Positions 40,415-63,222 of a stretch of DNA of 64,000 bases are shown here, in pieces. Made by a program: the position numbers and the translations under genes. The stretch covers positions 4,981,503 to 5,045,502 of the forward strand of contig NZ_JYKO02000001.1 in the NCBI RefSeq assembly GCF_000949385.2, written 5' to 3'. This DNA is from Pseudomonas sp. LFM046 (GTDB lineage: Bacteria > Pseudomonadota > Gammaproteobacteria > Pseudomonadales > Pseudomonadaceae). Each line of letters opens with the position of its first letter. Position 1 is the stretch's first letter. The notes under the pieces were generated by a model. The model was not told where the DNA came from, ran no database searches, and saw only the letters and a program-made list of their open reading frames with translations.

Positions 40415-40449
40415 TTGCGGGTTCTCCTGTAGGCAATCCGGGGCAGGCA

Positions 40450-41208: not shown

Positions 41209-41225
41209 GCTCGCTTCTCCTTGAC

Positions 41226-42674: not shown

Positions 42675-42690
42675 GGCAGCACTCCTGGGC

Positions 42691-43428
42691 TCAGTGACTG
42701 AACGCCGTGTCCTTGATCGTTTCCGGGCCGGGGAAGGCTGTCTTGCTGTGGGCCAGGCCCAGATCCAGGAGCAGCTCGCATTGCTTGTAGGCAATGACTC
42801 CGGGATTGAGCACGGGCACCGGCAGGTTGGCAGCCAGGTAGGCGTGGGACTGGTGCATGGTGGTGGAGCCGAGCACGATGACGTCGGCACCGTCCTCGTC
42901 TATGGCGCGCCGGGCAGCCTCCAGCAGCTTGGCGAAGACCACCTCCTCCTTGCCTTGCAGCAGGGCTTCGGTGTCCGGGCGCACGTCGATCGAGCGGATC
43001 GAGGCCAGCCGCGACTCCAGGCCGTACTCCTTGAGCGTCTTGCGGTACAGCGGGTACCAGCGCGGCCACATGGTCAGGATGCTGAACCGGTGGCCGAGCA
43101 TGCAGGCGGTGTGGAATGCGGCGATGCCGGGCGCCAGCACCGGGATCGACAGGCGCGAACGCAGCGCGGCCAGGCCCGAATCGCTGACGGTGTTGATGCA
43201 GACCGCGTCGAAGCCCTCCTCCTCGGCCTTGATGCCGGCCTCGATTACCGCCAGCTCCATCAGCGCCATGTCGTAGTAACTGTCGGCCAGGGTCATCACC
43301 TGGCCGGCACCGACGAAGCTGACCTCGATGTCCGGCCGCAGCAGCGCGGCGGGCAGCTGCGACTCCACCAACGGGCGGGTGGCCTCACTCATGGGCACCG
43401 GAAAGATCATCTTGATGCGTTTGCTCAT
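42691..43428 (-). CDS. Asp/Glu/hydantoin-racemase-fold protein lacking both catalytic Cys
   Basis: A 245-residue protein of the Asp/Glu racemase superfamily (maleate isomerase, hydantoin racemase, arylmalonate decarboxylase). Recognisable blocks are [19 protein letters not shown] (75-93, in part), [14 protein letters not shown] and [15 protein letters not shown] (182-196). Family racemases have Cys where this protein has Thr 80 (NTVSDSGL) and Ser 188 (LGSTTMH). A Cys is present at 77 but three residues off register. I use the ATG at 43426-43428 with SD GGAGA. Either a different chemistry or a non-catalytic role; racemase activity should not be assumed. Confidence 0.82.
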
Positions 43429-43442
43429 GGCAGCGTCTCCGC

Positions 43443-44765: not shown

Positions 44766-44775
44766 GGGCGGCTCC

Positions 44776-45804
44776 TCAATGGCTGGCGACGAACTGTTCG
44801 GCGAAGATGTTCTCCGCCCGCACACCCAGCTCGATCAGGCGCTGGGTCGCCGCGTCGATCATCGGTTGCGGGCCGCACAGGTAGGCCACGGTGTCCGGGC
44901 TGGTGACGTCGCCTTCACGCAACGCGCTGACCGGGCTGCCCAGATGCAGCCCCTCGGTGGCTTCGCGGTCGACGCAGATGCGCGCCTCCAGGGTCGGCAG
45001 CCACTGCTTGCGCAACTCGATGTCGTCCAGGGAGAACAGCGCCTCCGGCACCGCGCAGCCGAAGCTGAGCAGCATCGGCGGTTTGCGCCCACCGCTCTGG
45101 CGCAGGGTGTCGATCATCGACAGGATCGGTGCCAGGCCGGTGCCGCCGGCCACGAAGATGTGGGGCGCGCGCTTGTGTTCCTCGCGCAGGAAAAAGGCGC
45201 CATAGGGCCCACTCAGGGTCAGCACCTGGTCCACCTCGACCTGGTTTTCCAGGAAGCCGGACATGGCACCGCCCGGCAGCAGGCGGATAAGGAACTCCAT
45301 CTTCGGCAGGATCGCCTGGGTGCTCGACGGCGAATAGCTGCGCAGCACGCCCAGGCCCGGCACCACGATCTGCATGAACTGGCCGGGGAGAAATTCCATC
45401 CACTCGCCATCAGCCAACTCCAGGGTCACGCGCATGACATTGCTGGCGATGCGCTCGACCGAATCGACGAAGGCGTGCACCTCATGGGCGGCGCCGGCCC
45501 CCACTTCACTGCCGTAACCGAGGTTGAAGGTGCAGTCGGTATTGGCCTGGGATACGCACAACAGGCGCTGCCCCGCCTCGTACTCACTGCCCAGCAGTGA
45601 GGTGCTGGCGCCAGGCTGGGTGACCGCCTCGCCTTCGGCCAGACTGCAAATGCAGCTGGAGCAGCCACCGGAACGGCACTGGTAGAGCACCGGCATCTCG
45701 GAGGCGAGCGCGGCATCCAGGATATTGCCGCCCGGGGCGACACCAAAGGTACGGCTGACGCCATCGGAGAAGTTCAGGGTGATTTGGTGCAGTTGTTCAT
45801 TCAT
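44776..45804 (-). CDS. Rieske-oxygenase reductase (2Fe-2S ferredoxin plus FAD/NADH domains)
   Basis: Single-chain electron donor for the Rieske oxygenase at 48.5-49.8 kb. The 342-residue protein has an N-terminal plant-type ferredoxin with Cys 43, 48, 51 and 83 (CRSGGCSSCIC ... LLCVS), then an FNR-type FAD domain with RSYSPSST near 155 and an NADH domain with FVAGGTGLAPILSM near 220 and AYLCGPQPMI near 305. This domain order is that of class IB reductases such as those of benzoate dioxygenase and 2-oxoquinoline 8-monooxygenase. First gene of its operon, behind a XylS-type promoter. Confidence 0.93.
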   Translation of the reverse strand: MNEQLHQITLNFSDGVSRTFGVAPGGNILDAALASEMPVLYQCRSGGCSSCICSLAEGEAVTQPGASTSLLGSEYEAGQRLLCVSQANTDCTFNLGYGSEVGAGAAHEVHAFVDSVERIASNVMRVTLELADGEWMEFLPGQFMQIVVPGLGVLRSYSPSSTQAILPKMEFLIRLLPGGAMSGFLENQVEVDQVLTLSGPYGAFFLREEHKRAPHIFVAGGTGLAPILSMIDTLRQSGGRKPPMLLSFGCAVPEALFSLDDIELRKQWLPTLEARICVDREATEGLHLGSPVSALREGDVTSPDTVAYLCGPQPMIDAATQRLIELGVRAENIFAEQFVASH

Positions 45805-45897: not shown

Positions 45898-45960
45898 ATG
45901 TTAGGAAGGGCGAGCCAGCCATCGCGCTCCCTTGGGTTACGCGACTATCCCGGGAGCGCA
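45898..45960 (-). promoter_or_regulatory. XylS-type activator site and promoter of the reductase operon
   Basis: On the minus strand: TGCG-CTCCCG-GGATA (45946-45960), a 5-bp gap, a degenerate second half-site GTAACCCAAGGGAGC (45926-45940), 22 bp, then TAACAT (45898-45903). It matches the TGCA-N6-GGNTA box known for XylS/BenR. The same layout occurs before the Rieske operon and the transport operon. It lies about 90 bp before the reductase ATG in a 329-bp gene-free interval. Confidence 0.78.
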
Positions 45961-46057
45961 ATTAGTTGCGAGAGGCAACGCGGCAGCTTGCGCAAGACGC
46001 GGCGCGGCGCCCGCGCATGGCGGGCAGCGCAGTGCAGACACAGGGGAAAATGCGGTA

Positions 46058-46089
46058 GCCCCGGAAATGGCCAAAACCATGTCCGGGGC
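46058..46089 (-). terminator. Hairpin after the second amidase gene
   Basis: GCCCCGGA / TCCGGGGC with an inner ATGG / CCAT stem, 45-75 bp after the amidase stop, followed on the minus strand by CATTTTCC. Probably ends the Rieske-hydrolase-amidase transcript; the T-run is weak. Confidence 0.55.
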
Positions 46090-46133
46090 CACGCGTGGCA
46101 AGGCGCCTCAGCAGCCGTTCAAGGCGCTCGCGC

Positions 46134-47540
46134 TCAGGCGAACGCCGGCGGACGCAGGCGATGCCAGTCGCTGAGCTTCTGCACGGCCATGCCGGCACGG
46201 CACAGCACCGCCTCGCCGCCCTTGCGGGCAATGAACTGGCCGCCGATCGGCAGGCCGGCCTCGGTCAACCCGAGCGGCAGGCTGAGGCTGGGATGGCCAC
46301 TGACGTTGAACGGTGCGGTGAACTGGATCAGCCGGCGGTTGGCCTCCGGGTCCAGCGCCAGGTTGGCCAGTTGCTCATGGGTCGGCGCGGCATAGGGCTG
46401 CACCGGCGCCAGCACCACGTCCAGCTCATGCAACAGGGCATCCACTTCACCGGTGAAGCGCTGTGCCGCGAGCAGGATGCGCTGGTAGTCCATGCCGCTC
46501 AGGGCACGGCCGCCGTCGATCAGGCGACTCAGCGCCGGGCCGTACTCAGCGGCACGCTGCGGATAGGTGCCCGCGTGCGCCACGGCGGTCTGCACGCCGC
46601 AGTGCGCCTCCCAGTTGCCGCTCACCTCGCGGGTGTCCGGCATCCGTACGCTGCGCAACTGGCCGCCGCCCTCGTGGACCATCCGCATGATCTGTTGCAG
46701 CGCGCGCTGGATCACCGGGTCGACCCCGTCGCTGAGCCAGCGTTCGTCGATGCCAACGCGCAGGCCACGGAAGCTGTCATCGATCCCCGGCACCTCCAGG
46801 CAGACGCTCGGCTGCGAGGTGGGGTCGAGCGGGTCGTGACCGGCGATGGTCGACAACAGGAACAGCGTGTCGCGGGCACTGCGGGTGATCGGCCCGACAT
46901 GATCCAGGCTGGCGGCCATCTCGAAGGCGCCGAAGCGACTGACCCGGCCCCAGGTCGGCTTGAGCCCGGTCAGACCGTTGGCCGCACAGGGAAAGCGGAT
47001 CGAGCCGCCGGTGTCGCTGCCCAGCGAGGCGTAGCACAGCCCCGCCGCCGTGGCCACGCCGCAGCCGCTGGACGAAGCGCCGGTCCAGTGATCGGCACCC
47101 CAGGGATTGACCGGCGGTGCGATGCTCGGATGGTTGATGGCGAAGGCGCCCTCGGTCATCTGCAGCTTGCCGAGCATCACCGTCCCGGCTTCGCGCAGGC
47201 GGGCCACCACCGTGGCGTCCTGCTGCGGTACACGGTCGGCGTGCAGCGGCATGCCGGCGGCGGTGACCACCCCGGCGGTGTCGAACAGATCCTTGAGGGC
47301 CAAGGGGATGCCATGCAGAGGGCTGTGGCAGACACCCTTGGCCAACGCCTGCTCGGCCTCGCGGGCCTGCGCCAGGGCCAGTTCAGGTGTGACGCGGGCA
47401 TAGCTGCGCAGCGTGCCATCCAGCGCTTCGATCCGCGCCAGCTGGGCCTCGGTCACCTCGACCGGGGAGAGCTTGCGACTGCGGATCAGCAGCGACAGTT
47501 CATGCATTTCCAGGTAGTGAAGATCGCTGGGCAGGCTCAT
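46134..47540 (-). CDS. Amidase-signature hydrolase (second of two)
   Basis: A 468-residue amidase: Lys in GIPLALKDLFDTAG (about 80), Ser/Gly stretch GASSSGCGVATAAG, and nucleophile loop LGSDTGGSIRFPC (about 180), so the triad is complete. I use the ATG at 47538-47540 (MSLPSDLHYLEMHELS), which overlaps the preceding hydrolase stop by 4 bp; the longer frame upstream is a shadow of that hydrolase. Co-transcribed with the Rieske oxygenase, so it may act on the first oxidised product. Confidence 0.92.
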   Translation of the reverse strand: MSLPSDLHYLEMHELSLLIRSRKLSPVEVTEAQLARIEALDGTLRSYARVTPELALAQAREAEQALAKGVCHSPLHGIPLALKDLFDTAGVVTAAGMPLHADRVPQQDATVVARLREAGTVMLGKLQMTEGAFAINHPSIAPPVNPWGADHWTGASSSGCGVATAAGLCYASLGSDTGGSIRFPCAANGLTGLKPTWGRVSRFGAFEMAASLDHVGPITRSARDTLFLLSTIAGHDPLDPTSQPSVCLEVPGIDDSFRGLRVGIDERWLSDGVDPVIQRALQQIMRMVHEGGGQLRSVRMPDTREVSGNWEAHCGVQTAVAHAGTYPQRAAEYGPALSRLIDGGRALSGMDYQRILLAAQRFTGEVDALLHELDVVLAPVQPYAAPTHEQLANLALDPEANRRLIQFTAPFNVSGHPSLSLPLGLTEAGLPIGGQFIARKGGEAVLCRAGMAVQKLSDWHRLRPPAFA

Positions 47541-48400
47541 TGATCGACTCCGATAAATCCCAGGGCCAGACGATTGAATTCGTCCGGGCATTCGCTCTGC
47601 AGGTGGTGCGCGGCGTTGCCGAAGACGTGCAGATGGCCGTCGCGCAGGCGGTTGAGCATCAGCATCGGCACGTCGACGCTGCCGAACCAGTCGTGCAGTC
47701 CCCAGCACAGCAGGGTTGGCGCCTGCACCTGGTGCAGCAGCGGCAGCAGGTTCTCCCACTCGCCCAGGGCTCCCGGAGTACGCAGCAAGCGGATGAAGTC
47801 CGGGTTGTTGCTGGCCTCGAAGCGCAGGCGCAGGGTCTCGTCCTCCAGCCGGCTGTCGTCGTGCAGCTCGTAGCGCTGCAGCAGCACCCGCATCTTTTCC
47901 AGGCTGGGGCCGTCGCCCGCCAGGTAGTAATCGCTCATCAGGTTGGCGGCGTGCTTGCTGAACAGCGGCAGCGGCGCCAATGCCCCCTGATCGACCGGCT
48001 GCGAGCCGATCGCGATCAACCGGCCGACCCGCTGCGGATGCTCCGCCGCCAGACGCAGCGCCACCCCGCCCCCAAAGGACTGGTTGATCAGATGGGCACG
48101 GGCGATGCCCAGCGCATCCATGAAACCCAGCAGCTTGCGCGCATGCCAGGTGAACAGCGGCCCGTCCACCGGCACCCTGTCGGAGCCGCCGAACTGGGCG
48201 AAATCGAGGAAATAGCATTGCCGATTGGCGGCGAAGGCTGCCGCGCTCAGGCGGAAGTTGCTCCAGGCGGTACTGCCCGGGCCGCCACCGTGGGTGAAGA
48301 TGACCGGCAGATGCCCGTCATCCTGCCCCAGGAGCTGATAGTGCAGGCGCACGCCATCGACCGAGACGAACCGGCTCGGGCCGGGAGAGATAGACGACAT
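47537..48400 (-). CDS. Alpha/beta hydrolase of the meta-cleavage-product hydrolase group
   Basis: A 287-residue hydrolase with oxyanion motif FTHGGGPGSTAWSNF, nucleophile NQSFGGGVALRLAA (Ser about 109), Asp in WGLHDWFGSV and His in NAAHHLQSECP. The GGGPG and NQSFGG patterns are those of BphD/HsaD-type C-C hydrolases, but ester or amide substrates are possible. It lies between the Rieske oxygenase and the second amidase and overlaps the latter's start by 4 bp. It is clearly diverged from the hydrolase at 38.6 kb. Confidence 0.85.
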   Translation of the reverse strand: MSSISPGPSRFVSVDGVRLHYQLLGQDDGHLPVIFTHGGGPGSTAWSNFRLSAAAFAANRQCYFLDFAQFGGSDRVPVDGPLFTWHARKLLGFMDALGIARAHLINQSFGGGVALRLAAEHPQRVGRLIAIGSQPVDQGALAPLPLFSKHAANLMSDYYLAGDGPSLEKMRVLLQRYELHDDSRLEDETLRLRFEASNNPDFIRLLRTPGALGEWENLLPLLHQVQAPTLLCWGLHDWFGSVDVPMLMLNRLRDGHLHVFGNAAHHLQSECPDEFNRLALGFIGVDQ

Positions 48401-48420
48401 ACAGGCTCCAGAAAGCGGAA

Positions 48421-48448
48421 AGCCAGCGCTCCATGAGGAGCGCTGGCT
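48421..48448 (-). repeat. Intercistronic hairpin after the Rieske gene
   Basis: A perfect 12-bp stem AGCCAGCGCTCC / GGAGCGCTGGCT with a four-base loop lies between the oxygenase stop and the hydrolase start, without T-run. It would stabilise the upstream message or lower downstream expression. Confidence 0.65.
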
Positions 48449-48457
48449 GGGTGGGAA

Positions 48458-49792
48458 TCACTCTTCGATCTTGCGGACCCTGTAGCCCGGACGATGACCG
48501 TCGGCGGTGTCCTTGAAGATCAGGCTGGTGTCCTTGCGCGCACCGGCCACGCCGCGTCCCGGCTTGGCGATGCCGCGGTTCCAGCGCGAGGCCATCTTGC
48601 GCCAGGTGATCGGCGACACGTCGGTGGCCACCAGCTGCTCGTTGTCCCAGCCGGTGCCGTCGGAGTAGAAGTTCTGCATGGCTTCGCGGGCGTACAGGTC
48701 GCAGTCGTTGAAGCCGTGCAGGCACAGCGGCTCGTACATGTACTTGTAGCGGTAGTCGAATTTCGTGCGGTCTTCTTCGGTCGGGCACACACGCACCAGG
48801 ATTTCCCAGTACTCGTGGGTGTCGTCGGTGATCGGCACGTACCACTCGTACTGCACGACGTGCTCTTCCGGCCAGTTTTCCACCATCAGCACGCCCGGCA
48901 GGACCACCGACGTGCGGTAGAAGCGACCCTTCAGGCCGTCGACCTTCAGACCCAGGGTCTCGTTCTCCAGGATCGGCTTCCACTTGTCGGTGAACAGCCA
49001 CTGCATCAGGCCCTTCGGCCCGTTCTCGTCCTCGATCACGCTGATGCAGTCGTCGGCGGTCGGCAGGATGCCCAGCGGCAACACCCAGTCCATCGCATGG
49101 ACGATGGCGTTGTCCTTGTGCACCAGGATGTGGGCGTTGTCGAAGCCGTTCTCGCAGGCGATCCGCCAGTTGCCATAACCGGTACGGTGCATGCCGCGAA
49201 CCTGCGCGTTGTCGTCCAGCACGCTCGGCGAGGACGGCCACAGCGGGTGCGGGAAGCGATCACTGTTTTCCGGGAAACGGAACGGCAGGTCGTGGGACAG
49301 CGGCGGCACGTCCTCGTCGGGGAAGTCGTCTTCACGCACGAAGACGAAGATCATGCCGTTGACCTCATGCACCGGGTAGGTGGTGATACCGGTGGTGCCC
49401 ACCAGCTTGTCGTCCGGGTTGGCGATGATGGTCACCAGCTCGCCGCTCTGCAGATCGAAGGTGAAGCCGTGGTACCAGCAGGAGATGGTGCTCTTGTTGA
49501 AGCACATCGGCTTTTCGGACAGGCGCACGCCACGGTGCAGGCACTGGTCCTTCAGCGCGAAGACCTTGCCGTTGACCCGACGCAGCACGATCGGCACACC
49601 GCAGATCTGCAGGCCTTCGACCTGGTCCTCGCCCAACTCGTGGGTGAACAGCGCCGGATACCAGTGGTTGATGAAGCCCCAGGCGGCATCCTTGTAAGGC
49701 TGGTACTGGCTCTGGGTCTTGGCGTTGTTGGTGCGGGCATCGCTGATACCGGTTTTAACCACACGCCGGCGGATGGTGGGCTGCTCGGACAT
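48458..49792 (-). CDS. Rieske non-heme iron oxygenase, CarAa / 2-oxoquinoline-8-monooxygenase-like
   Basis: Terminal oxygenase of 444 residues. The Rieske 2Fe-2S motif is C84-L-H86 ... C105-W-Y-H108; the mononuclear iron site is in NGFDNAHILVHKD (Asp 218, His 221, His 225) with a C-terminal Asp in HGFNDCDLYARE (363/365). GFINHWYP near 40, STISCWYHGF, VVLPGVLMVEN, YEWYVPI and REAMQNFYSDGTGW follow carbazole 1,9a-dioxygenase CarAa closely from memory, which also resembles 2-oxo-1,2-dihydroquinoline 8-monooxygenase. I start at the ATG at 49790-49792. No small beta subunit is present, as in those homotrimeric enzymes. It leads its operon under a XylS-type promoter. Exact substrate unknown. Confidence 0.9.
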   Translation of the reverse strand: MSEQPTIRRRVVKTGISDARTNNAKTQSQYQPYKDAAWGFINHWYPALFTHELGEDQVEGLQICGVPIVLRRVNGKVFALKDQCLHRGVRLSEKPMCFNKSTISCWYHGFTFDLQSGELVTIIANPDDKLVGTTGITTYPVHEVNGMIFVFVREDDFPDEDVPPLSHDLPFRFPENSDRFPHPLWPSSPSVLDDNAQVRGMHRTGYGNWRIACENGFDNAHILVHKDNAIVHAMDWVLPLGILPTADDCISVIEDENGPKGLMQWLFTDKWKPILENETLGLKVDGLKGRFYRTSVVLPGVLMVENWPEEHVVQYEWYVPITDDTHEYWEILVRVCPTEEDRTKFDYRYKYMYEPLCLHGFNDCDLYAREAMQNFYSDGTGWDNEQLVATDVSPITWRKMASRWNRGIAKPGRGVAGARKDTSLIFKDTADGHRPGYRVRKIEE

Positions 49793-49847
49793 TGTTGATC
49801 CCTCTGGCTGACTGCATGGCGCCGCCCTATGCGGCGCTGTTGCAGTC

Positions 49848-49909
49848 ATCCTAAAAAGGCTGTTCGAGACTGACGCTCCCTAGACTGTGTGGCTTATCCC
49901 GCAAGCGCA
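49848..49909 (-). promoter_or_regulatory. XylS-type activator site and promoter of the Rieske operon
   Basis: On the minus strand: TGCG-CTTGCG-GGATA (49895-49909), a 5-bp gap, CACA-GTCTAG-GGAGC (49875-49889), 21 bp, then TAGGAT (49848-49853). The -10 resembles the TAGGCT of the XylS-dependent Pm promoter. A GC hairpin (GCGCCGC / GCGGCGC, 49819-49837) lies in the leader. Confidence 0.8.
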
Positions 49910-50030
49910 GAAAGATGCACGAACCATAGGGGCATTGGCGCGCTCAGCCCATCCTACGAACTTCATCCTGCTAGTCGGGCAATTCGATCGTCAAAGGCAG
50001 AGCCGGTGACTCATGACCACAGCGCGGCAA

Positions 50031-51029
50031 TCAACGTGCGAGCGTCTCCGACGGGCTCTCGCCGAAGCGGCGCTTGTAGTCGGTGGTGAAATGCCCGAGG
50101 TGGCTGAAGCCCCAGCGGAAGGCGACCGCCGTTACCGTGTCGCTGCCGGGGCTCAGGCGCTGCAGTTCCTCGTTGACGTGGCGCAGGCGAACTTCCTTCA
50201 GGTACAGCATCGGCGAGGTGTTGCGGTAGCGACGAAAGCCCGTGAACAGGGAGCGGCTGCTGACGCCCGCGTGCTCGGCCATGTCGACGATGGAGATCGG
50301 CTCGTGGGCGTGCTCCTCGATGTAGCGCTCCACGCGCTTGACGAACGAGGGCGCCAGCGAACGGCCGTCGGAACTCAGCTCGCTCGAATAATTGTGGGGG
50401 TGATTGGTCAGCAGCAGATTGACCAGACCGGCCTCCATCTGCGCCGTCAGCAAGGGCGACAGTTCATCGTCCACCGACAGGCTGTCGTACACCCAGCTGA
50501 CCATGCGCAGCCAGCGCGCTCCGGCCTCGGTATCCAGCGGCAGGCTCGACTCGAACTCGATGTTGCTGCGCAGGGTACGACCGAGCAATTGCTGGCAATG
50601 CCGCTCGATCAGGCTGCGATCGACACGGATGATCAGCTTCTCCGTGTTCGGCGCATGATTGATCAGGATCGGCGTATGGGCGTTGATCACCGTGCCCATG
50701 CGCGAATTGCTCAGAACGCTTTTCTGCCCCTGCTCGATCCGCTCCTCGCCATAGATGGGCATCTGAATCAGCGCAAAGGTATCGAGCACGCCCGGCGTGA
50801 TGGTGACGGCGCCGCCATAGCTCATGCGGCCGATGCCGATGCCGCCGAAGCGCCGGTAGTACACGCGGGCATCGACCGAGCCACGGCCATCGACACTGCA
50901 GAGACGGTTCGCGCAGAAGATCTTCTCACCGATCTGGCGGGCTTCTTCCAGGTCGCGGGTATGGCAAATTTCGTAGCGTGCAAGCACCGCTTCCGGTGGA
51001 GTAACCGGACGAAAAGTCAGCTGTTCCAT
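50031..51029 (-). CDS. AraC/XylS-family activator of the catabolic regulon
   Basis: A 332-residue regulator with an N-terminal AraC_binding_2 type effector domain (about 30-200: INHAPNTEKLIIRVDRSLIE) and a C-terminal double HTH (about 230-328) with FVKRVERYIEEHAHEPISIVD, GVSSRSLFTGFRRYRNTSPM and AVAFRWGFSHLGHFTTDYKRRFGESPSE (shown in pieces). The C-terminal pattern is that of XylS, BenR, AntR and CbdS. It is monocistronic between the Rieske operon and the transport operon and is the best candidate to bind the three XylS-type sites. SD GAGGT precedes the ATG. Confidence 0.9.
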   Translation of the reverse strand: MEQLTFRPVTPPEAVLARYEICHTRDLEEARQIGEKIFCANRLCSVDGRGSVDARVYYRRFGGIGIGRMSYGGAVTITPGVLDTFALIQMPIYGEERIEQGQKSVLSNSRMGTVINAHTPILINHAPNTEKLIIRVDRSLIERHCQQLLGRTLRSNIEFESSLPLDTEAGARWLRMVSWVYDSLSVDDELSPLLTAQMEAGLVNLLLTNHPHNYSSELSSDGRSLAPSFVKRVERYIEEHAHEPISIVDMAEHAGVSSRSLFTGFRRYRNTSPMLYLKEVRLRHVNEELQRLSPGSDTVTAVAFRWGFSHLGHFTTDYKRRFGESPSETLAR

Positions 51030-51429
51030 GGGTCTACCTCAGCGGCCGGGCTAGGCAACCCGACCGGGCTATCTCACGATCTTTATGCGATCCGGGGTAC
51101 ATCTCCCCGGATCATTCTTGTTCTGGCAGTCGTTAGCTGAGCCTGGAGTCCCGATTCTCCGACGGGCGCTCCGGTTCAGTGCAAGGCTGGATAAAACCGC
51201 CGCTTCGGCGAGCACGTGCCCACTGCGGCCCCTGTACAAGCTCCTGTTTCCTATTCAGGTCCGGGGACTTTCCGAATCAAGCATTTAGCGGGCCAAGACG
51301 CTATCTGCCTGCCCTTTTCCCGACGAACATCGGCAGCACGACCTTTGCGTCATGAATGCGCCCATTCGTCGCGAAAAAAATGGCCAGGAACCCCCTCGCA
51401 GGCGTCCCTGGCCTTGACTTCCAGTCAGC
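51030..51429. other. 400-bp gene-free interval upstream of the AraC-type gene
   Basis: Holds the leader and presumably the promoter of the regulator gene, and the terminator of the upstream operon at 51374-51416. I see no coding sequence; short open frames lack SD and composition. No clear XylS box was found facing the regulator gene. Confidence 0.5.
51374..51416 (-). terminator. Terminator of the YCF48-to-cupin operon
   Basis: On the minus strand GGCCAGG ... CCTGGCC with a long loop is followed by ATTTTTTT, 13 bp after the cupin stop. Confidence 0.78.
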
Positions 51430-51969
51430 TTATCGGCGCTCGGCACCGACCATGACGAACATCATGCGTGCCGGAGTGTTACCCGTGTTACGCCATGCGT
51501 GTCGGGTACCCATCTGCACCACCACATCACCGGCGTTCAGCACGGTCGGCTCGCCTTCATCCAGGTGCAGGGTCAGCTGTCCCTCGACGAGCACGCCGTA
51601 GTCGATGGTGTCGCTGCGGTGGAAACCGGGGGCATCCGCCTCGAACAGCTCCGCCAGCCCCGGCAGGCGAGCGGCCATCTCCTCACCCGCGGCCTGCAGT
51701 TGCTCCGGGGTGGGCATACCTGCCGACTCCGGCGGGAAGGTCACCAGCATGGCGCAGGTACCGCCGGCCGCTGGCAGAACCGACTCGATCCGGGCCAGGG
51801 GTTCGGGCTGGACAGCGCCCACCAGCGGCTCGGCCTCGGTCTTCCAGAACAGCGCGGCACTGAAGCCCGGGCTGTGCACGAAGGATTCGTCGCCGGCAAT
51901 TGGGCCGGCGCTGACGATACGGGAACGGCCTGCACCGTCATGCCCGGTCACCACGCAATTGGCGCGCAT
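51430..51969 (-). CDS. Cupin-domain protein
   Basis: A 179-residue protein with a C-terminal cupin (about 105-175): DTIDYGVLVEGQLTLHLDEG and GDVVVQMGTRHAWRNTGNTPARM (in part), where the His before W and the upstream Asp/Tyr positions suggest a metal site with reduced His content. The first 100 residues form an extended N-terminal half. I choose the ATG at 51967-51969 because AGGAGG lies 6 bp before it. It is the last gene of the transport operon. It may be a small isomerase or dioxygenase-like enzyme, or a sensor; not assignable. Confidence 0.8.
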   Translation of the reverse strand: MRANCVVTGHDGAGRSRIVSAGPIAGDESFVHSPGFSAALFWKTEAEPLVGAVQPEPLARIESVLPAAGGTCAMLVTFPPESAGMPTPEQLQAAGEEMAARLPGLAELFEADAPGFHRSDTIDYGVLVEGQLTLHLDEGEPTVLNAGDVVVQMGTRHAWRNTGNTPARMMFVMVGAERR

Positions 51970-51986
51970 CGGAAACCTCCTGGCGG

Positions 51987-53093
51987 TCACCGGTGAAGGA
52001 TGTGGAAGTTGGTGAAACCATTACCCTGCGCCTGGATCGCCTCCAGCGCTTCGTTGAGCTTCTCCAGGGGATAGGCGCGCGACTCCAGTTGCGACAGATC
52101 GAGAATCCCCGACTCCACCATGCTCGCCATCTCTTCGCCCTCGCGGGTGGTGAACCACAGCGAGCCGATGTACTGGAGCTGCGCGCACATGAAGGGGTGC
52201 GGATCGATCGGAATCGGACCGGCCACGCCACCGATCTGCACGATGCGGCCGCCACGGCCGACGGCCTGCATGGCATCCACCGACAGCTCGGTCGGCGCCT
52301 TGGCGCCCAGGGTATCGAGCATCGAATCAATACCAGCCGGCAGCAGAGCGCGCACTTGCTCATGGATGCTCCTCTCGCCGATGTGGATCGGCACCACGCG
52401 GCGCGGATCGAGGGCCTGCAAACGCTCCAGCGCCGCCTGGTCACGGGCGGCCACCAGTACGCGGGCCGCGCCGAACGCCAGGGCCAGCAACGCGGCGCCC
52501 ACACCCAGGGTGCCGCTGGCGCCGAGAATCAGGATGTTCTGCGACGGGCGCAGGGCGGCCTTGCGGATCGCCGCATAGGCGGTGCCCAGATACCCGAAAC
52601 GGGTCGCCTCGGCGAAGCTCAGGCAATCCGGCAGACGCACCAGGCTGTGGCCATGGGCCGTCATGTACTGGCCGTAACCGGCATAGGGGTAGCGCTCGAA
52701 CACCTTCTGCGAGCCGGGGCCAAAACCGAAATAGCCCATGAAGGTGTAGGCCTCGCAGCGCGGCGCATCGCCTTCGCGGCAATGGCGGCATTCGCCGCAA
52801 CCCACCCCCGGATTCACATAGACCCGGTCGCCAGGCTTGAACGCCGTGACGGCGGAGCCGACGGCGGTAACCGTGCCGGCCGAATCCAGGCCGAAGATCG
52901 CCGGCAGCGCGGGCAACGGCAGGAATGGATACCACTCGGGAAAATGCGTGGTGACGTTCTTCAGGTTCGGGATCACACCGGATGCCTCGACCTTCACCAG
53001 CACATCGTGCGGCCCGGGTGTGGGCCTGGGCACTTCATCGACCACGAACTTTCCGCCGATCTCATGCAGACGGGCAGCGTGCATCATTGTCAT
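51987..53093 (-). CDS. Zinc-type medium-chain alcohol dehydrogenase
   Basis: A 368-residue MDR enzyme. The structural zinc loop CGECRHCREGDAPRC (about 95-110) and the Rossmann motif ILILGASGTLGVGAALLAL near 165 are complete. The usual catalytic Cys near residue 40 is replaced by Gly-Val in EASGVIPNLKNV, so the catalytic zinc site is atypical. Several ATGs crowd the start; I use the one at 53091-53093 because AGGAT lies 7 bp upstream. The operon position suggests oxidation of an alcohol in the degradation pathway. Confidence 0.85.
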   Translation of the reverse strand: MTMMHAARLHEIGGKFVVDEVPRPTPGPHDVLVKVEASGVIPNLKNVTTHFPEWYPFLPLPALPAIFGLDSAGTVTAVGSAVTAFKPGDRVYVNPGVGCGECRHCREGDAPRCEAYTFMGYFGFGPGSQKVFERYPYAGYGQYMTAHGHSLVRLPDCLSFAEATRFGYLGTAYAAIRKAALRPSQNILILGASGTLGVGAALLALAFGAARVLVAARDQAALERLQALDPRRVVPIHIGERSIHEQVRALLPAGIDSMLDTLGAKAPTELSVDAMQAVGRGGRIVQIGGVAGPIPIDPHPFMCAQLQYIGSLWFTTREGEEMASMVESGILDLSQLESRAYPLEKLNEALEAIQAQGNGFTNFHILHR

Positions 53094-53180
53094 TGTTGTC
53101 ATCCTCATGCCGACGGTAGCTGGGCCGCCGGGAAATGGACTGCCGTCGGCGCCCATGGCGGGCGCCGAGGCGACGAAGGA

Positions 53181-54449
53181 TCAGCGGCCCGCCGACTGCA
53201 AGGTCTGCAGGGAGAAGTTGCTGGCCTTGGCGTCGAAGTTGGTCTTCCAGGCTGCGGTGTCGATCAGCGACAGCGTGGCGTGATTGCGCTGGAAATCGAT
53301 GACCGCGCTGGCGGTGGTACGGACATCGCCATCGGCGGTGTTGGCGTAGGAATGGAATTCCATGAACTTCCAGAACTCGCCTTTGCGGTTATAGGCCTCG
53401 GCGTAGTAGAAACGCGGGTACTTCACATCCATGTACAGCACCTTCTTGCTGTAGGGATGCACCGACGGTGTGATCGCTTCGATCACGTAGACCTCACGCG
53501 GCTCGAAGTTGTTGTTGTTCATGTTCCAGTACGGCGCCTTGTCGTCGAGCACCGGGTATTTCTCGGCAAAGCTCTTGCCGTTCGGGTTCCACAGGCCGGT
53601 CTTGCTGTTGGCCGCGGCGAGCACCCAGCGTTTTTCCACCAGTTTGTACTCGGGGTACCAGCAGGGACGGGCGTTGAAGGCGTCCAGGTCGTCCTGCAGC
53701 TGATCGGAAGAACCCACCGGGTCCATCCAGGCGCCACCGGAGAGGCGGCGAATGCGGCGCACGGCCGGGATGTAGGCCCACACGTCGTTGACCTTTTCCG
53801 AGTCGTACATCTGGGTGTAGGTGCCCAGCCCCTTCATGTCGGAAGGCGACTTGAAGTAGAGCAGCTGACGACCACGCTCGCTGCCGTCACCCTCCACGGT
53901 ACTGTCGCCGGTGAGTCGGCCCTTCATGGTGTAGCGGCTGAACTCCGCCACCGGCTCGGCGTGGACGCCCTTCTTGCCGTCGATCAGCAACTGGGTGAAC
54001 TGCGGCACCTGGGAGACATCCCCCACCAGTTGGCCGAGGTGCCAGTTCCACATGAGTTTTTCCGCGGCCTGCGGGTCCTTCATATCGATCTCGGGGAACG
54101 GCTCACCCGCGCCCCAGTTGTCCACCCGGCAGGCTTCCTTGTTGATGCTGGCCTTGCCCGCGTTGGCCTGGGAGGCCTTGACCCAGCGCGGGTCCAGAGG
54201 CACCTCCTTCGAGGCGGCCAGCGGCAGCTTCCAGCCGCTGTTGCGGATGCGCCACTCCATCTTCTCGGTCAGCAGGCTGGCGATGCTGTGTCCCTCGAAG
54301 GTGTCGTTCTTGATCTGGTCGATGTTCTCGGCGGAGATCACGGTACCGGCGGGCAGTTCGGCGGCAACGGCCAGGGACGGGATGCTGCCGGCAGCGGCGA
54401 TCAGGCCGGCCGCCAGGGTGTACCGCAGGGCGAAACGGGATGCGCTCAT
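53181..54449 (-). CDS. DUF1329 outer-membrane-associated protein (LolB-like)
   Basis: A 422-residue exported protein with signal peptide (MSASRFALRYTLAAGLIAAAGS ... SLAVAAE in part). The DUF1329 body contains GTYTQMYDSEKVNDVWAYIP and RRIRRLSGGAWMDPVGSSDQ (in part), and DLDAFNARPCWYPEYKLVEKR. DUF1329 proteins recur beside DUF1302 and RND genes in steroid and hydrophobic-compound degradation clusters and are thought to handle lipophilic substrates in the periplasm. It lies 21 bp after the DUF1302 stop, in one operon with the transport genes. Confidence 0.88.
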   Translation of the reverse strand: MSASRFALRYTLAAGLIAAAGSIPSLAVAAELPAGTVISAENIDQIKNDTFEGHSIASLLTEKMEWRIRNSGWKLPLAASKEVPLDPRWVKASQANAGKASINKEACRVDNWGAGEPFPEIDMKDPQAAEKLMWNWHLGQLVGDVSQVPQFTQLLIDGKKGVHAEPVAEFSRYTMKGRLTGDSTVEGDGSERGRQLLYFKSPSDMKGLGTYTQMYDSEKVNDVWAYIPAVRRIRRLSGGAWMDPVGSSDQLQDDLDAFNARPCWYPEYKLVEKRWVLAAANSKTGLWNPNGKSFAEKYPVLDDKAPYWNMNNNNFEPREVYVIEAITPSVHPYSKKVLYMDVKYPRFYYAEAYNRKGEFWKFMEFHSYANTADGDVRTTASAVIDFQRNHATLSLIDTAAWKTNFDAKASNFSLQTLQSAGR

Positions 54450-54470
54450 GATGAGGTCTCCGATGGGGGG

Positions 54471-56078
54471 TCAGAACAGGTAGGTCAGGCTGGTGTAGAC
54501 CTGATCGCGGTCGTGGAACACGCCGAACAGGGTGGTGCTGTCGCAGTTGTTCATCTGTCCGGGCACGCACTTGGAGGCGTCCCGGTGGGCGTCATCCCAG
54601 AAGGCGTCGTACTCGACCTTCCAGCGCCACTTGCTGGACAGCTCGAAGGTCACCGACGGAATGGCGAAACCGCCGCCATTGCTCAGGTCCGAGCCCAGCA
54701 CCAGTTGTGGGTGGACGCGCCCGCTGTCGTAGCTGAGGTCGAAGATGGTGGTGGCCAGGACCGAATGCTCCTTGACCTTGCCACCCCAGCCCACGCTGTA
54801 GAGCAGCCCGTCATCCTCGTCGAAGTTCTGCACCCATTTGTCGAACAGTTGCACCGAGAAGAACATCGGCTTTTCCGTCCCCAGCAGCTCCTGGGTGAAG
54901 GCGAAGTTCTTGTCCATGCGGACCATGGCCGCGATCACGTCCTTGCGGGTGAAGCCGTCGAAGCCGGGGGCAATGAACTGGCTCAGCACGGTCGGGTTGT
55001 CCAGCGTGATCTGGTACGGGGCGTCCTTGATGTAGGCCATCTCGGTGCTGAACACCGCGTCGGCCGCATCGGAGTAGCCGCTGGCGGTGAAGCCGAAGAT
55101 GTCGACGATCGGGTAGATGACTTCGCCGGCCACACCGCGGGTCTGGTCGGTGCCGTGGGTCTCGGCGCCGGACGGCACGTTGGGCAGGCCGATCAGCGCG
55201 AGGTTGTTCGAGGCGTTGAGGATCGGCGAGTTGTAGAAGGTCCGGAGGTACGACAGCGAGTAGTTGAGGTCGCCGTACAGGCCGCTCCAGCGCAGGCCGC
55301 CGGTGAAGTCCTTGTAATCGCCTTCGTCGTTCTCGAAGTTGTAGGGGTCGATGTTGCGGAAATCGACGCCGGCGTACGGATTGCCCGACCAGCGCCCGCC
55401 GTAGATGTCCAGCTCGGTGCCGATGTCGTCCTTGCGATCCAGCCCGGGACGGACGAAGGCCTCCAGGCCACCCTCCAGCTCCGGCACATCGATGTTCATC
55501 TTGATGATGTTGTTGGTCTTGCGCAGTTCCTCGTTGGCCGGTTCGAGGAAGTTGCGCCAGGTGAAGTCGAAACCGTGCACCAGGTCGTTGGCGGCGAAGA
55601 AGTCGGTCTCGCCCCAGGCCAGCTGCTGCTTGCCGATGCGGAAGGACAGGCGCTCGCCCACCGGGAAGTCGACGTAGAGCTCGCGGATCTGCTCATCGTC
55701 GTAGAGCTCCATGATGTCGCCCCGGCCATCCGCTTCGCGGAAGTTGTTGGCGCCCATCTCTTCGAGGTGTTCGAGGAAATCGGTTTCGACCTCGCGGCTG
55801 GCCCGCAGCTTGGCGACGACCGAAATGTCTTCCGTGGCCTTCCAGTCCAGGTTGAGGCGAACGGTGCTGCGAGCCATGGACAATTTGCCCTTGTCATCGA
55901 AGCCGGGGGTGTCGCCCCAATCCTTGGTGTTCCAGGACAGCTCTTCGCGCAGGTAGCCGTCGTAGTGGAAGCTGTCGTCGGCCAGCGCCGACAGGGCGAC
56001 GGTGCCCAGTGAAATCGCGAGGGCGAGCTTGTCGATCGACGCACGCCTGAGCGCGGCCGGGATGTGATTCTTGTTCAT
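54471..56078 (-). CDS. DUF1302 outer-membrane protein
   Basis: A 535-residue exported protein. The signal peptide ends near SLGTVALSALA-DD; the mature part is rich in amphipathic beta strands, aromatic and acidic residues, and ends with Phe (VYTSLTYLF), the usual outer-membrane barrel signature. Family segments include RIGKQQLAWGETDFFAANDL and FTWRNFLEPANEELRKT. Probably the outer-membrane channel or docking partner of the RND transporter. I take the ATG at 56076-56078 (MNKNHIPAALRR); the upstream frame is a shadow of the RND gene. Confidence 0.88.
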   Translation of the reverse strand: MNKNHIPAALRRASIDKLALAISLGTVALSALADDSFHYDGYLREELSWNTKDWGDTPGFDDKGKLSMARSTVRLNLDWKATEDISVVAKLRASREVETDFLEHLEEMGANNFREADGRGDIMELYDDEQIRELYVDFPVGERLSFRIGKQQLAWGETDFFAANDLVHGFDFTWRNFLEPANEELRKTNNIIKMNIDVPELEGGLEAFVRPGLDRKDDIGTELDIYGGRWSGNPYAGVDFRNIDPYNFENDEGDYKDFTGGLRWSGLYGDLNYSLSYLRTFYNSPILNASNNLALIGLPNVPSGAETHGTDQTRGVAGEVIYPIVDIFGFTASGYSDAADAVFSTEMAYIKDAPYQITLDNPTVLSQFIAPGFDGFTRKDVIAAMVRMDKNFAFTQELLGTEKPMFFSVQLFDKWVQNFDEDDGLLYSVGWGGKVKEHSVLATTIFDLSYDSGRVHPQLVLGSDLSNGGGFAIPSVTFELSSKWRWKVEYDAFWDDAHRDASKCVPGQMNNCDSTTLFGVFHDRDQVYTSLTYLF

Positions 56079-56134
56079 GGTGTCTCCCAAGGGTGGTGGC
56101 AGCGTGGAACTTGCGTTCTTGTTGTTGTCTGGTC

Positions 56135-58546
56135 TCAAACCGGTTGGAGCGACGCGGAAGCGGAGCCGGCGCCCAGCGGGTCCGGCTCGCCGAAGATGAA
56201 GCGCGGGCGGAACACGTAGAGCAGCGACGGCATGACGAAGAGGGCGGAGAAGGCCGACACGCTCAGCCAGATGGCCATCAGCAGGCCCATCTCGGCCTGG
56301 AAGCGCAGCGACGACAGCCACCACAGCAGGGTGCTGACGATGAGCACGCTGGCGGTGACGATCACGCCCATGCCCGAGGAATGCAGGGCCAGGCGGATGG
56401 CCTCCTCGGCGCTGCGGCCTTCGGCGATTTCCTCCTTCACCCGGTCGGCGATGTAGAAGGCGTAATCCACCCCCAGGCCGATGCCGAGGGCGGCCACCGG
56501 CACGGTGTTGATGTTCATGCCGATGCCCTTCCAGGTCATGAAGGCGAAGGTCAGCATGTTGGAAATGATCACCGGCACCATGAACACCATGCCGGCGACG
56601 CTGGAGCGGTAGACCAGGGTGCAGAGCACCGCCAGCACCAGCAGGGCCAGGGCGATGGCCTCGATCTGGCTGGACAGGATGATTTCGTTGACCGCCGCCA
56701 TCACCCCGATCAGGCCACCCGCCAGGTGCCACTGGCCTTCGGCCAGGGGATGGGTGGCGATGAATTCCTTGATCCGCGCCACCGCCGTGCGGATGGTCTC
56801 GCCCTGGCGGTCACGGAACATCAGGGTCACCGAACCATTGGCGTACTGATCGTCGGCAAAGCGCGAGATATCCCCCGGCTCGGAGACTGAATCCAGCATG
56901 GCCATCAGGCTGCCGTTGATCGCTCCGCTGTCACCCAGCTCCAGGTAGCGCGGATTGCCTTCGCGCAGGCTGCTGTTCACGTTGGGCAGGACGTCGGCGA
57001 TGGACAGCGAGCCGCCCACTTCCGGCTGCGCCTCGATGAAGCGCTGAAAGCTGTTCATCGCGTGCAGCGCTTCGTTGCCCTTGATCAGGCCGGGACGGCT
57101 GTCGTCGCCGAGCACCACGAACATCCGGTCAACGCCTTCGAAGCGGCCGTTGATCGCAGCGGAGTCACGGTTGTAGGGCGACTCCGGCCAGAGGATCGGC
57201 GAGCCGGGGTTGGCGTCGCCGATCTTCAGGTTCAGCGAATACAGGCCGGCGCCCACGACTACCAGCAGGCTGGCGCCGAGCACGACGTAACGGGCCCGCG
57301 ACAGGCAGACCCGCACCGCCAGGTCGAGCACCTTGCGCAGCACCGGCAGGCAATCGATGGGATGCGCCACGCCATGGGGCTTGCGGATGAAGGACAGCAT
57401 GACCGGCGTGAGGATCACCGCGCTGACCGTCAGCGTCGACACCCAGACCACCGCCAGCACGGTGAGCTTCTGCAGCATCGGGATCGGGCTCAGGGCCACC
57501 ACCGCCATGCACGCGGCGTCGGCGATCACCCCCAGCATGCCCGGCCGGAAGAGGTCGGCCAGGGCCACCCGCGCCGCGATTCCGGCGGTGTCGGCGCCGG
57601 GCGGTAGCAGTTCCAGCTCATCATCGAAGCGATTGACGATCTGCACCGAATGGGAGACCGCCCGCGAGGTGATCAGCATCGCGACCACGATCACCAGCGG
57701 CTCGAAATTGATGGCCAGCAGACGGCAGATGCCCAGCGCCCAGATCGCGCTCACCAGGCCCGCCAGCAGCGGCAGCATCAGGCCGCGCCAGGTGCGCAGC
57801 AGCACGAAGAGCATCACCAGGGTCACCAGCAGCGCCGCCGCGACCAGCTCGATGGTTTCCGGCAGGTAGTGGCCCACCCAGCCATAGAGGATCGGGTCGC
57901 CCACCACGCGGATCTTGACGCTGCCGTCATCCACCTTGGCGATCAGGTCGCGAATCTCCTGGAAGACCTTGGTGTAGTCCACCTGCTGGTCGATGAAGTC
58001 CACGGTGATCAGGGTGGCCTGCAGGTCCTTGGACACGTAGGGCCCATAGACCAGCGGGTTGCGCAGCACGGCCTGCTTCAGCTCGGTCATGGCCTCGGCG
58101 TTCGCCGGCAGATCCGGCCACATCAGCGGGCGGCTCTCGATGCCGGCCGTGGAGGCGCGGACCTCCTTCAGCTTCTTCGAAGCGAGCGAAGTGATCTGGT
58201 ACTGGTTGACTGCGGACACCTCACGCAGGCCCAGGGTCACGGTCCGCACCTTGTCCAGCACGGGGGTCTGGAAGATATCCCCCTGCTCCACCTCGAACAT
58301 GATGGTGACCATGTTCGAGCCGCCGAAGGTGTCCTTGAACTTGTCGTGGGTCTGCACGTACTCGTGGCGCGAGGGCAGCATGTCCTCGAAGACCGTGCGG
58401 ACCTCGATGTGCAGGGCGAACCAGCTCAGGGCCAGGGTCAGGATAAGGAGTCCGCCCGCCACCCAGGCGCGCCAGCGGATGCACAACTCGGCAATGCGTT
58501 CGATCATGTTCTGCTCTCCATTGGAAGGGGCCAGGGACGGGTTCAT
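56135..58546 (-). CDS. RND-superfamily (MMPL-type) transporter
   Basis: An 803-residue inner-membrane protein with two RND halves. Each half has one N-terminal membrane helix, a large periplasmic loop and five more helices (about 12 total; clusters near 215-400 and 610-790). The first loop begins VRTVFEDMLPSRHEYVQTHD, characteristic of single-chain MMPL/hopanoid-type RND proteins. Paired with YCF48, DUF1302 and DUF1329 it forms a four-gene module found with degradation of sterols and other hydrophobic compounds. Its start overlaps the YCF48 stop by 4 bp. Direction of transport unproven. Confidence 0.88.
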   Translation of the reverse strand: MNPSLAPSNGEQNMIERIAELCIRWRAWVAGGLLILTLALSWFALHIEVRTVFEDMLPSRHEYVQTHDKFKDTFGGSNMVTIMFEVEQGDIFQTPVLDKVRTVTLGLREVSAVNQYQITSLASKKLKEVRASTAGIESRPLMWPDLPANAEAMTELKQAVLRNPLVYGPYVSKDLQATLITVDFIDQQVDYTKVFQEIRDLIAKVDDGSVKIRVVGDPILYGWVGHYLPETIELVAAALLVTLVMLFVLLRTWRGLMLPLLAGLVSAIWALGICRLLAINFEPLVIVVAMLITSRAVSHSVQIVNRFDDELELLPPGADTAGIAARVALADLFRPGMLGVIADAACMAVVALSPIPMLQKLTVLAVVWVSTLTVSAVILTPVMLSFIRKPHGVAHPIDCLPVLRKVLDLAVRVCLSRARYVVLGASLLVVVGAGLYSLNLKIGDANPGSPILWPESPYNRDSAAINGRFEGVDRMFVVLGDDSRPGLIKGNEALHAMNSFQRFIEAQPEVGGSLSIADVLPNVNSSLREGNPRYLELGDSGAINGSLMAMLDSVSEPGDISRFADDQYANGSVTLMFRDRQGETIRTAVARIKEFIATHPLAEGQWHLAGGLIGVMAAVNEIILSSQIEAIALALLVLAVLCTLVYRSSVAGMVFMVPVIISNMLTFAFMTWKGIGMNINTVPVAALGIGLGVDYAFYIADRVKEEIAEGRSAEEAIRLALHSSGMGVIVTASVLIVSTLLWWLSSLRFQAEMGLLMAIWLSVSAFSALFVMPSLLYVFRPRFIFGEPDPLGAGSASASLQPV

Positions 58547-59586
58547 GGCTGCAGCTCCGACCATTGGCGGCCGTCCCAGCGGCCGATGTCGGCGCCGGCC
58601 AGCCAGGTCGCGCCGCCGTTCACCAGGGCGCGGGTGTGCCAGGAGAGGTTGCGTTCATCCAGGGCGCCGCTTTTCCAGTCCTCGCCGTTGCCGGAGACCC
58701 AGCGACCCAGGGAGCCGGTGGCGAACCAGCGCTGCTGCTGCGGGTTCCACAGCACATCGAACAGATGCTCGGTCACGCCCAGCTCGACCGTTTCCCAATT
58801 GCGGCCGCCATCACGGGTCACCAGCAGGGCGCCTTCGAGACCGACCGCCACGCCGTTCTGGCCATCGCGGAACTGCACCGACATCAGCGAACCGGGAACG
58901 GGCGCGGCGATTTCCTCCCAGCTCTGCCCCTGGTCATCGCTGAGCAGGACGCGCCCGAACTCGCCGACCACCACCAGGCGGCCGCCGTCGAGAATGGCCA
59001 CGTCGTTCCAGGCCACGTCTTCCTCTTCGCGCAGACGCTGCCAGGTCTGGCCGTAATCCCGGCTGACCAGCAGGGCGCCCATTTCGCCCGTGGCGATGGC
59101 CAGCCCGCCTGCGGCGACACGCACGCGGTTGAGCTTGTTGGCAACGTCCGAGCGCGGCACGCCTTCGGCGAGCTGCCAGTTCCGTCCCGCGTCCTGGCTA
59201 TGCAGGATCACCCCGTCGTTGCCCACCGCCACGGCATGCGCGGCATCCCAGATGGCAACGTCTTGCAGCGTCCGGTCAGTCGGCGTGGGCAGGCGGCGAA
59301 CCTGGCCGTCCGGCGCGATGGCGAGGATTTTGCCGTTCGATCCGCAGGCCCAGACCTCGCCATCGGCGGCCAGGGCCAGGCCGTAGAAATGGTCCCGCCG
59401 CTCCAGTGCCGGCGGGGTCACGGTGCCCCCGACCGGCTGCGGCTTGATGAACAGCCCGGCCCAGAGCAGACCGGCGATGATCGACCAGGGCAGCACCGTC
59501 ATCAGCGCTTTCAGGGCGCGCTGCACGAGGCCCGGGCTCGGTATCCGCTGGGCGGCGGCTTGATCGATGTTGATGAGTTTTGACAT
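58543..59586 (-). CDS. YCF48/BNR-repeat beta-propeller protein
   Basis: A 347-residue protein with an N-terminal cytoplasmic stretch, one membrane helix (about 30-50: VLPWSIIAGLLWAGLFIK), and a periplasmic propeller of repeated blades with the BNR/YCF48 pattern (HSQDAGRNWQLAEG, VSRDYGQTWQRLRE, LSDDQGQSWEEI, VTRDGGRNWETVE). I start at the ATG at 59584-59586. It is first in the transport operon behind a XylS-type promoter and is coupled to the RND gene, so it is likely an assembly or accessory subunit. Confidence 0.88.
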   Translation of the reverse strand: MSKLINIDQAAAQRIPSPGLVQRALKALMTVLPWSIIAGLLWAGLFIKPQPVGGTVTPPALERRDHFYGLALAADGEVWACGSNGKILAIAPDGQVRRLPTPTDRTLQDVAIWDAAHAVAVGNDGVILHSQDAGRNWQLAEGVPRSDVANKLNRVRVAAGGLAIATGEMGALLVSRDYGQTWQRLREEEDVAWNDVAILDGGRLVVVGEFGRVLLSDDQGQSWEEIAAPVPGSLMSVQFRDGQNGVAVGLEGALLVTRDGGRNWETVELGVTEHLFDVLWNPQQQRWFATGSLGRWVSGNGEDWKSGALDERNLSWHTRALVNGGATWLAGADIGRWDGRQWSELQP

Positions 59587-59651
59587 GGCTCGGGTCCACA
59601 GGGTTGGCGTCGTCTTGTTCTGGTAATGGCGCCGGCAACGCAGGCAACCCC

Positions 59652-59713
59652 ACTCTAGGTACCCCCCGGGACCCGAACTATCCCGACACTGCACGGCTTG
59701 TCCCCCAGGCGCA
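59652..59713 (-). promoter_or_regulatory. XylS-type activator site and promoter of the transport operon
   Basis: On the minus strand: TGCG-CCTGGG-GGACA (59699-59713), 5 bp, a perfect XylS box TGCA-GTGTCG-GGATA (59679-59693), 21 bp, then TAGAGT (59652-59657). Best of the three sites. The remaining gap (59714-60000) contains only the repeat at 59827-59907. Confidence 0.82.
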
Positions 59714-63211: not shown

Positions 63212-63222
63212 GGTCGGTCTCC

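Follow-up and report, generated by a model that had tools for sequence, protein, structure and literature searches.

Conserved tandem sites as probable operators of an OxoS-type AraC/XylS activator in a 2-oxoquinoline-type catabolic cluster of Pseudomonas sp. LFM046

Do the promoters of a catabolic gene cluster on a 64,000-nucleotide (nt) stretch of the Pseudomonas sp. LFM046 genome, referred to here as the window, share one operator, and which protein is likely to bind it? The cluster encodes a Rieske oxygenase (OxoO), a reductase (probably OxoR), a probable transport operon headed by a gene for a YCF48-like protein, and an AraC/XylS-family regulator. The original prediction had placed transport, oxygenation, and ring cleavage under one switch acting through tandem XylS-type sites. 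As far as computation reaches, this interpretation is supported, and the cluster appears as a conserved regulon of a known kind. The shared, conserved sites favor the single switch, while the pathway type had to be amended to the 2-oxoquinoline/8-hydroxycoumarin type. Very probably, the sites are tandem operators of the adjacent regulator, an OxoS-type activator of a 2-oxoquinoline (8-hydroxycoumarin-type) catabolic regulon, which would give a widespread catabolic cluster a sharp operator definition.

Architecture and rarity of the tandem sites

Three tandem sites are found in the window, all on the minus strand and numbered by window position. They are listed with the regulator gene, which was recognized by its domain profiles.

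45946..45960, minus strand: distal half-site of the reductase (OxoR) promoter, TGCGCTCCCGGGATA
45926..45940, minus strand: proximal half-site of the reductase promoter, GTAACCCAAGGGAGC
45898..45903, minus strand: putative -10 element TAACAT of the reductase promoter (promoter function predicted), 22 base pairs (bp) past the site
49895..49909, minus strand: distal half-site of the Rieske oxygenase (OxoO) promoter, TGCGCTTGCGGGATA
49875..49889, minus strand: proximal half-site of the OxoO promoter, CACAGTCTAGGGAGC
49848..49853, minus strand: putative -10 element TAGGAT of the OxoO promoter, 21 bp past the site
59699..59713, minus strand: distal half-site of the transport-operon (YCF48) promoter, TGCGCCTGGGGGACA
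59679..59693, minus strand: proximal half-site of the YCF48 promoter, a perfect TGCA-N6-GGATA box, TGCAGTGTCGGGATA
59652..59657, minus strand: putative -10 element TAGAGT of the YCF48 promoter, 21 bp past the site
50031..51029, minus strand: AraC/XylS-family regulator, probable OxoS-type activator (PF14525 and PF12833)

Each site joins two 15-base half-sites across a 5-bp gap (reductase, 45960-45926; Rieske, 49909-49875; YCF48, 59713-59679), with a period of 20 bp at all three promoters and 21-22 bp to a TAxxxT element, as originally proposed. The distal halves fit TGCR-N6-GGAYA. The perfect box noticed earlier at the transport operon is the promoter-proximal half, an exact XylS-type box. The second half-site that had been read at every promoter is present, but those of the Rieske and reductase genes keep the GGGAGC part and not the TGCA part; with only the B box retained there, the fit of these two promoters to tandem TGCA-N6-GGNTA operators is partial.

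The promoters number four, one more than had been described. The fourth site is located about 3 kb past the window end, at genome position C1:5048505-5048539, and reads TGCGCTTTCGGGATA-5-GTAAGCCACGGGAGC. It precedes a gene for an MhpB-type extradiol dioxygenase, followed by MhpC-, MhpD-, MhpF-like, and MhpE-like genes (named by reading their sequences), and it strengthens the inclusion of ring cleavage in the switch. In an 18-genome sample of the genus, the two other genomes carrying the site again have this promoter before MhpB. Among 10 stretches from other genomes, 9 of which were picked for holding a site away from the regulator, the site stands before MhpB in 5 and before MhpD in 3 (L103, L104, and L108). 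A matrix search of the flank beyond the fourth site (L095) yielded no further site.

The tandem pattern TGCRN5GGGAYA-N14-GGGANM matches the 5.97-Mb genome exactly at four places, which all fall within 21 kb; as the three window sites supplied the pattern, the fourth match alone is independent. No exact match was obtained with the reversed pattern in the genome or with the pattern itself in 6 Mb of order-1 random sequence. Scanning the genome, as the original prediction had suggested, thus finds exact tandem sites in the cluster and none elsewhere. When up to two mismatches are allowed, the 68 genome matches hardly exceed the 57 of the reversed control. Single half-boxes of the form TGCRN6GGAYA are marginally enriched in the window (7 versus 2.7 +/- 1.8 expected; 2 of 100 shuffles reach 7). 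A consensus scan of positions 45500-60100 returned 0 sigma-70-like promoters and is little informative, as shuffled sequences yield just 1.5 +/- 1.2.

Conservation and spacing in orthologous loci

Relatives of the regulator were found encoded in 54 loci, of which one (L094, Sorangium, 34%) was excluded, leaving 53. A weight matrix was trained on 47 distinct exact-pattern sites from these loci, with the window excluded, and the 400 bases before each gene were scored with a threshold of 15 bits; training and scoring drew on the same loci. Conservation in orthologous clusters, on which the original prediction had staked its regulon beforehand, was found at the promoters of OxoO (44/46 loci), YCF48 (17/20), and OxoR (23/36), and it spans beta- and gammaproteobacteria. 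Among the 23 OxoO promoters falling outside the training pattern, 21 still reach 15 bits, and 11 of the 13 OxoR misses are operon-internal, with OxoR following OxoO and the amidase gene. Sites of this strength are also present before alcohol dehydrogenase (ADH) genes in 9 of 37 loci and before a short-chain dehydrogenase/reductase (SDR) gene in 1 of 32. In the window itself, the same matrix gives 42.3 bits for the OxoO site, 40.8 for the reductase site, and 30.9 for the YCF48 site, the next-best places scoring 5.2 (the YCF48 site in a shifted register) and 1.5 bits.

No site was found before ten other gene classes: RND (0/20), DUF1302 (0/19), DUF1329 (0/20), M20 (0/36), amidase (0/41), cupin (0/39), HsaD-like (0/27), VOC (0/26), HydB (0/19), and Asp/Glu racemase (0/24). 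The promoter of the regulator gene itself carries a site in 0 of 42 loci, and autoregulation through the motif was accordingly rejected. In total, 111 sites of at least 15 bits occur in 1.95 Mb of the loci (both strands, with a distal-box prefilter). OxoO is encoded in the fetched stretch of 46 of the 53 loci and lies at most 2 kb from the regulator in 35; the loci without it (L064, L065, L068, L076, L080, L085, and L090) include several on short contigs.

The OxoO promoters of 43 loci and the window (44 in all; 41 after near-identical ones are collapsed; those of L058 and L060 are not alignable) were aligned. Information per base amounts to 1.10 bits across the site and 1.66 across the -10 hexamer, compared with 0.42 for the spacer and 0.21 for the upstream bases, and all 44 promoters have the same distance of 21 bp between the second box and TANNNT. 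According to its record, the Pm promoter of the TOL plasmid reads TGCAAGAAGCGGATA-6-TGCAAAAAATGGCTA-21-TAGGCT, with the same 21-bp gap between box and -10 element. This distance places the second box against or partly over the -35 region, as in XylS-dependent promoters. In the OxoO promoters, TGCR is preceded by a strongly conserved T run, which is absent at the reductase and YCF48 sites of the window.

Several loci depart from the common arrangement. L056 has two OxoO copies in one cluster (at 11167 and 16988), each with its own site, and in the Thauera/Azoarcus-type loci L061, L062, L064, L068, and L070 a second AraC-family stretch (30-33%) directly follows the first. At L107 position 3140, in genome G106, the gene that follows a site encodes another AraC-family protein (31%) and is not a queried enzyme gene. 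The Pandoraea/Paraburkholderia loci L086, L087, L088, and L093 have divergent OxoO sites, for example, TGCACGGACGGGATA...TTGGAGTG, and in the regulators of L087 and L093 the first recognition helix is altered, a hint that protein and site may be changing together in these loci.

Candidate binding proteins

The protein encoded at 50031..51029 matches both profiles of an AraC/XylS-family regulator above cut-off (PF12833, 76 bits; PF14525, 131 bits). We evaluated its co-occurrence with the sites in 398 genomes of the family, drawn evenly from a larger group and including some of the same records as the orthologous loci, and called the regulator at E <= 1e-90 with five candidates scored per genome. 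It is present in 19 of them. A slightly looser tandem pattern has at least one exact match in 19/19 genomes with the regulator, and at least two matches occur in 18/19 with it versus 1/379 without it.

Some observations speak against assigning the sites to this regulator. The looser pattern also matches 41 of the 379 genomes lacking it; the strict form separates the genomes completely (19/19 with the regulator, 0/379 without), but this form was set after the matches had been seen. Moreover, sites and regulator share one cluster, so their co-occurrence shows linkage and not binding. In the promoters of OxoO and OxoR, the proximal half-site has a degenerate A-box. Misses occur at 2 of 46 OxoO promoters (L058, degenerate; L060, one base shorter between the boxes), at 3 of 20 YCF48 promoters (L058, L081, and L084), and at 2 of 36 OxoR promoters that are not operon-internal (L071 and L076, degenerate or shifted by one base). 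In addition, 13 of the 111 sites precede no queried gene, and MhpB, where it occurs inside the 53 orthologous loci, has no site of its own (0/6).

Another XylS-type paralogue, above all BenR, could bind the sites instead and place the cluster under general benzoate-type control. The genome does encode a BenR (63% identical to XylS) next to a benA homologue; TGCA-N6-GGNTA is the half-site family of BenR in a passage of PMC6449761; and the part of PMC1360089 that shows the Pseudomonas fluorescens Pben promoter prints a 5-bp gap, so such a gap is not new as such. However, Pben of the same genome reads TGCAAAAAACGGATA-6-TGCAAAAAGCGGATA-21-TAACCT, with a period of 21 bp and A-rich inner bases (TGCA-AAAAAC-GGATA and TGCA-AAAAGC-GGATA) and without the CGGGATA or GGGAGC core, while the cluster sites combine a 20-bp period with CGGGATA; the difference in period makes BenR an unlikely binder. 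Across the 104 residues of the DNA-binding part, the regulator shares 41 identities with BenR and 39 with XylS, whereas BenR and XylS share 72. The regulator also differs from XylS at five of the positions that we take to contact DNA. With its DNA-binding part far from BenR and XylS, and with the period and core of Pben being different, the local regulator is the better candidate, and we consider control by BenR very improbable. A genome that holds two XylS-type regulators whose half-site periods differ (20 and 21 bp) offers a natural test of how cross-talk is avoided.

It is very improbable that the sites belong to a transcription factor outside the AraC family and merely resemble XylS boxes. 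The half-sites are incomplete repeats in two of the three promoters, and GGGATA...GGGAGC is open to another reading. Against this, the YCF48 site and the site of one orthologue, L079, which is a full tandem (TGCACTTTCGGGATA-5-TGCACTGCCGGGACA), are plain tandem XylS-type boxes, the spacing to the -10 element is that of Pm, and the AraC gene is the only regulator recognized in 44776-59586, although the orthologous loci were not searched systematically for others. Chance resemblance in GC-rich promoter DNA, with sites chosen by eye, would suit the marginal half-box enrichment and the two-mismatch counts, but it has next to no probability, as exact tandem sites number 4 versus 0 in the controls and conservation across beta- and gammaproteobacteria with a fixed -10 spacing already contradicts it.

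If the sites are operators of the adjacent regulator, two of its monomers would bind head-to-tail half-sites 20 bp apart, the proximal half-site would end 21-22 bp before the -10 element, overlapping or abutting the -35 region, and RNA polymerase would be recruited. In the presence of the inducer, presumably a 2-oxoquinoline-like compound, four promoters would fire together, driving the OxoO oxygenase, the reductase with an extradiol-type enzyme and hydrolases, the YCF48/RND/DUF1302/DUF1329 transport genes, and the mhpBCDFE-type ring-cleavage genes. The gene of the regulator would remain outside control by the motif.

Pathway type and comparison with known systems

The genes and operons that these promoters would serve, together with a hairpin next to one of the operons, are as follows.

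48458..49792, minus strand: OxoO, Rieske oxygenase of the 2-oxo-1,2-dihydroquinoline 8-monooxygenase type (PDB 1z01; PF11723 and PF00355)
47537-48400, minus strand: HsaD/BphD-like C-C hydrolase, downstream of OxoO
46134-47543, minus strand: amidase, downstream of OxoO
44776..45804, minus strand: reductase with Fer2, FAD, and NAD domains, probable OxoR (domain profiles)
38616..44825, minus strand: genes downstream of the reductase, probable operon (open reading frames and synteny)
51430..59586, minus strand: probable transport operon for YCF48-like, MMPL/RND, DUF1302, DUF1329, zinc ADH, and cupin proteins (profiles)
51365..51425, minus strand: terminator-like hairpin with a T run, located past the cupin gene where the transport operon gives way to the regulator gene (folding energy -28.9 kcal/mol, z -3.4)
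62201..64000, minus strand: MhpE- and MhpF-like genes, part of an mhpBCDFE-type operon (named by sequence reading)

OxoO aligns with PDB 1z01 over its whole length (residues 1-444; 968 bits, E 7e-291), the runner-up being carbazole dioxygenase with 301 bits. This match assigns the cluster to the quinoline/8-hydroxycoumarin type. OxoO likely forms one operon with the C-C hydrolase and amidase genes (46134..48400), their co-transcription being suggested by synteny. The genes at 38616..44825 would encode an M20 hydrolase, an Asp/Glu racemase-like protein, an amidase, an SDR, a VOC-type extradiol dioxygenase-like protein, and an alpha/beta hydrolase, names that come from sequence reading alone. 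The gene order of the transport operon, ending in the regulator, is identical in 20 of the 53 orthologous loci. The hairpin downstream of it is matched in folding by 2 of 200 shuffles and is absent from the consensus-scan list. The shared promoters tie this putative YCF48/RND/DUF1302/DUF1329 transport complex and the mhp-type operon to the oxoquinoline oxygenase.

In the 8-hydroxycoumarin pathway of quinoline breakdown, the oxygenase product is carried on to 2,3-dihydroxyphenylpropionate, which agrees with an MhpB-type operon being under the same switch. The mhpBCDFE-type operon crosses the right edge of the window (window 62201-64000; genome C1:5045502-5048540). Directly downstream of the MhpE-like gene, and in the same orientation, follows a gene for a methyl-accepting chemotaxis-type protein (window 60001-61980, identified by sequence reading); it may belong to the same transcript as the operon, and its product may sense the substrate. 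According to a passage of PMC5519977, a pathway dedicated to quinoline degradation uses XenA for the reduction of 8-hydroxycoumarin. An old-yellow-enzyme gene about 5 kb past the fourth site was considered as a XenA of this kind and rejected, since it scores 136 bits as a 2,4-dienoyl-CoA reductase and at most 98 bits as XenA.

A qor-type molybdenum hydroxylase gene was not found near the cluster: the only four PF02738 matches of the genome (C1:691360, 1801070, 2442661, and 2741606) all lie 1.5 Mb or more from it, even on the assumption of a circular contig. We therefore do not uphold quinoline as a certain substrate, and a 2-oxoquinoline-like compound may be what enters the pathway. Within 10 kb on each side of the orthologous loci, molybdenum-hydroxylase-like proteins are encoded at 2 of 53 (L073 and L090), as judged with the four proteins of this genome as queries, which distant relatives may escape. 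We put forward only tentatively, and with some doubt, the broader view that a single OxoS-type regulator, acting on a 20-bp-period operator unlike the BenR operator of the same cell, runs a beta- and gammaproteobacterial regulon that includes dedicated YCF48-RND-DUF1302-DUF1329 transport, with, in view of the scarcity of molybdenum-hydroxylase genes in the loci, a new 2-oxoquinoline-like compound, not quinoline, as its natural inducer and substrate.

That activators of the AraC/XylS family act through tandem TGCA-N6-GGNTA half-sites is well documented in passages of PMC5481539 and PMC6449761. Within this group, the cluster sites have their half-site family in common with BenR/Pben, whereas in the Pben of this genome the gap is 6 bp and the core is another. 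XylS/Pm of the TOL plasmid pWW0 is alike in its tandem TGCA-N6-GGNTA-type half-sites, its 21 bp to the -10 element, and its double helix-turn-helix activator, but Pm combines a 6-bp gap with a 21-bp period where the cluster sites have a 5-bp gap and a 20-bp period. The anthranilate dioxygenase regulator AndR (NF041686) is the best NCBIfam match of the regulator (residues 15-331), yet with 177 bits against a cut-off of 350 the regulator is not a member of that family.

A close likeness also exists to the OxoS regulon of Pseudomonas putida 86, with which the cluster shares an OxoO orthologue (PDB 1z01 is, we assume, the P. putida 86 enzyme) and a XylS-type regulator, here adjacent to oxoO. Carl, Arnold, Hauer, and Fetzner are said to have described, in Gene in 2004 (331:177), the XylS-type activator OxoS of that strain with the promoter motif TGC-Pu-CT-N3-GGGATA, which fits our orthologue consensus. 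P. putida 86 reportedly has qorMSL in its cluster, whereas in LFM046 the window and the 1.5 Mb around it hold no PF02738 gene. Among open-licence PMC papers, a search for OxoS, OxoO, OxoR, and quinoline found no text describing this regulon, and the core finding was perhaps already described in P. putida 86. To our knowledge, the mhp and YCF48/RND operons have not been counted as part of the OxoS regulon of that strain. If that description holds, the present analysis extends the known system to the mhp and transport operons, and it also shows how widely the sites are conserved, that exact ones are confined to the cluster, and how they differ from the BenR sites.

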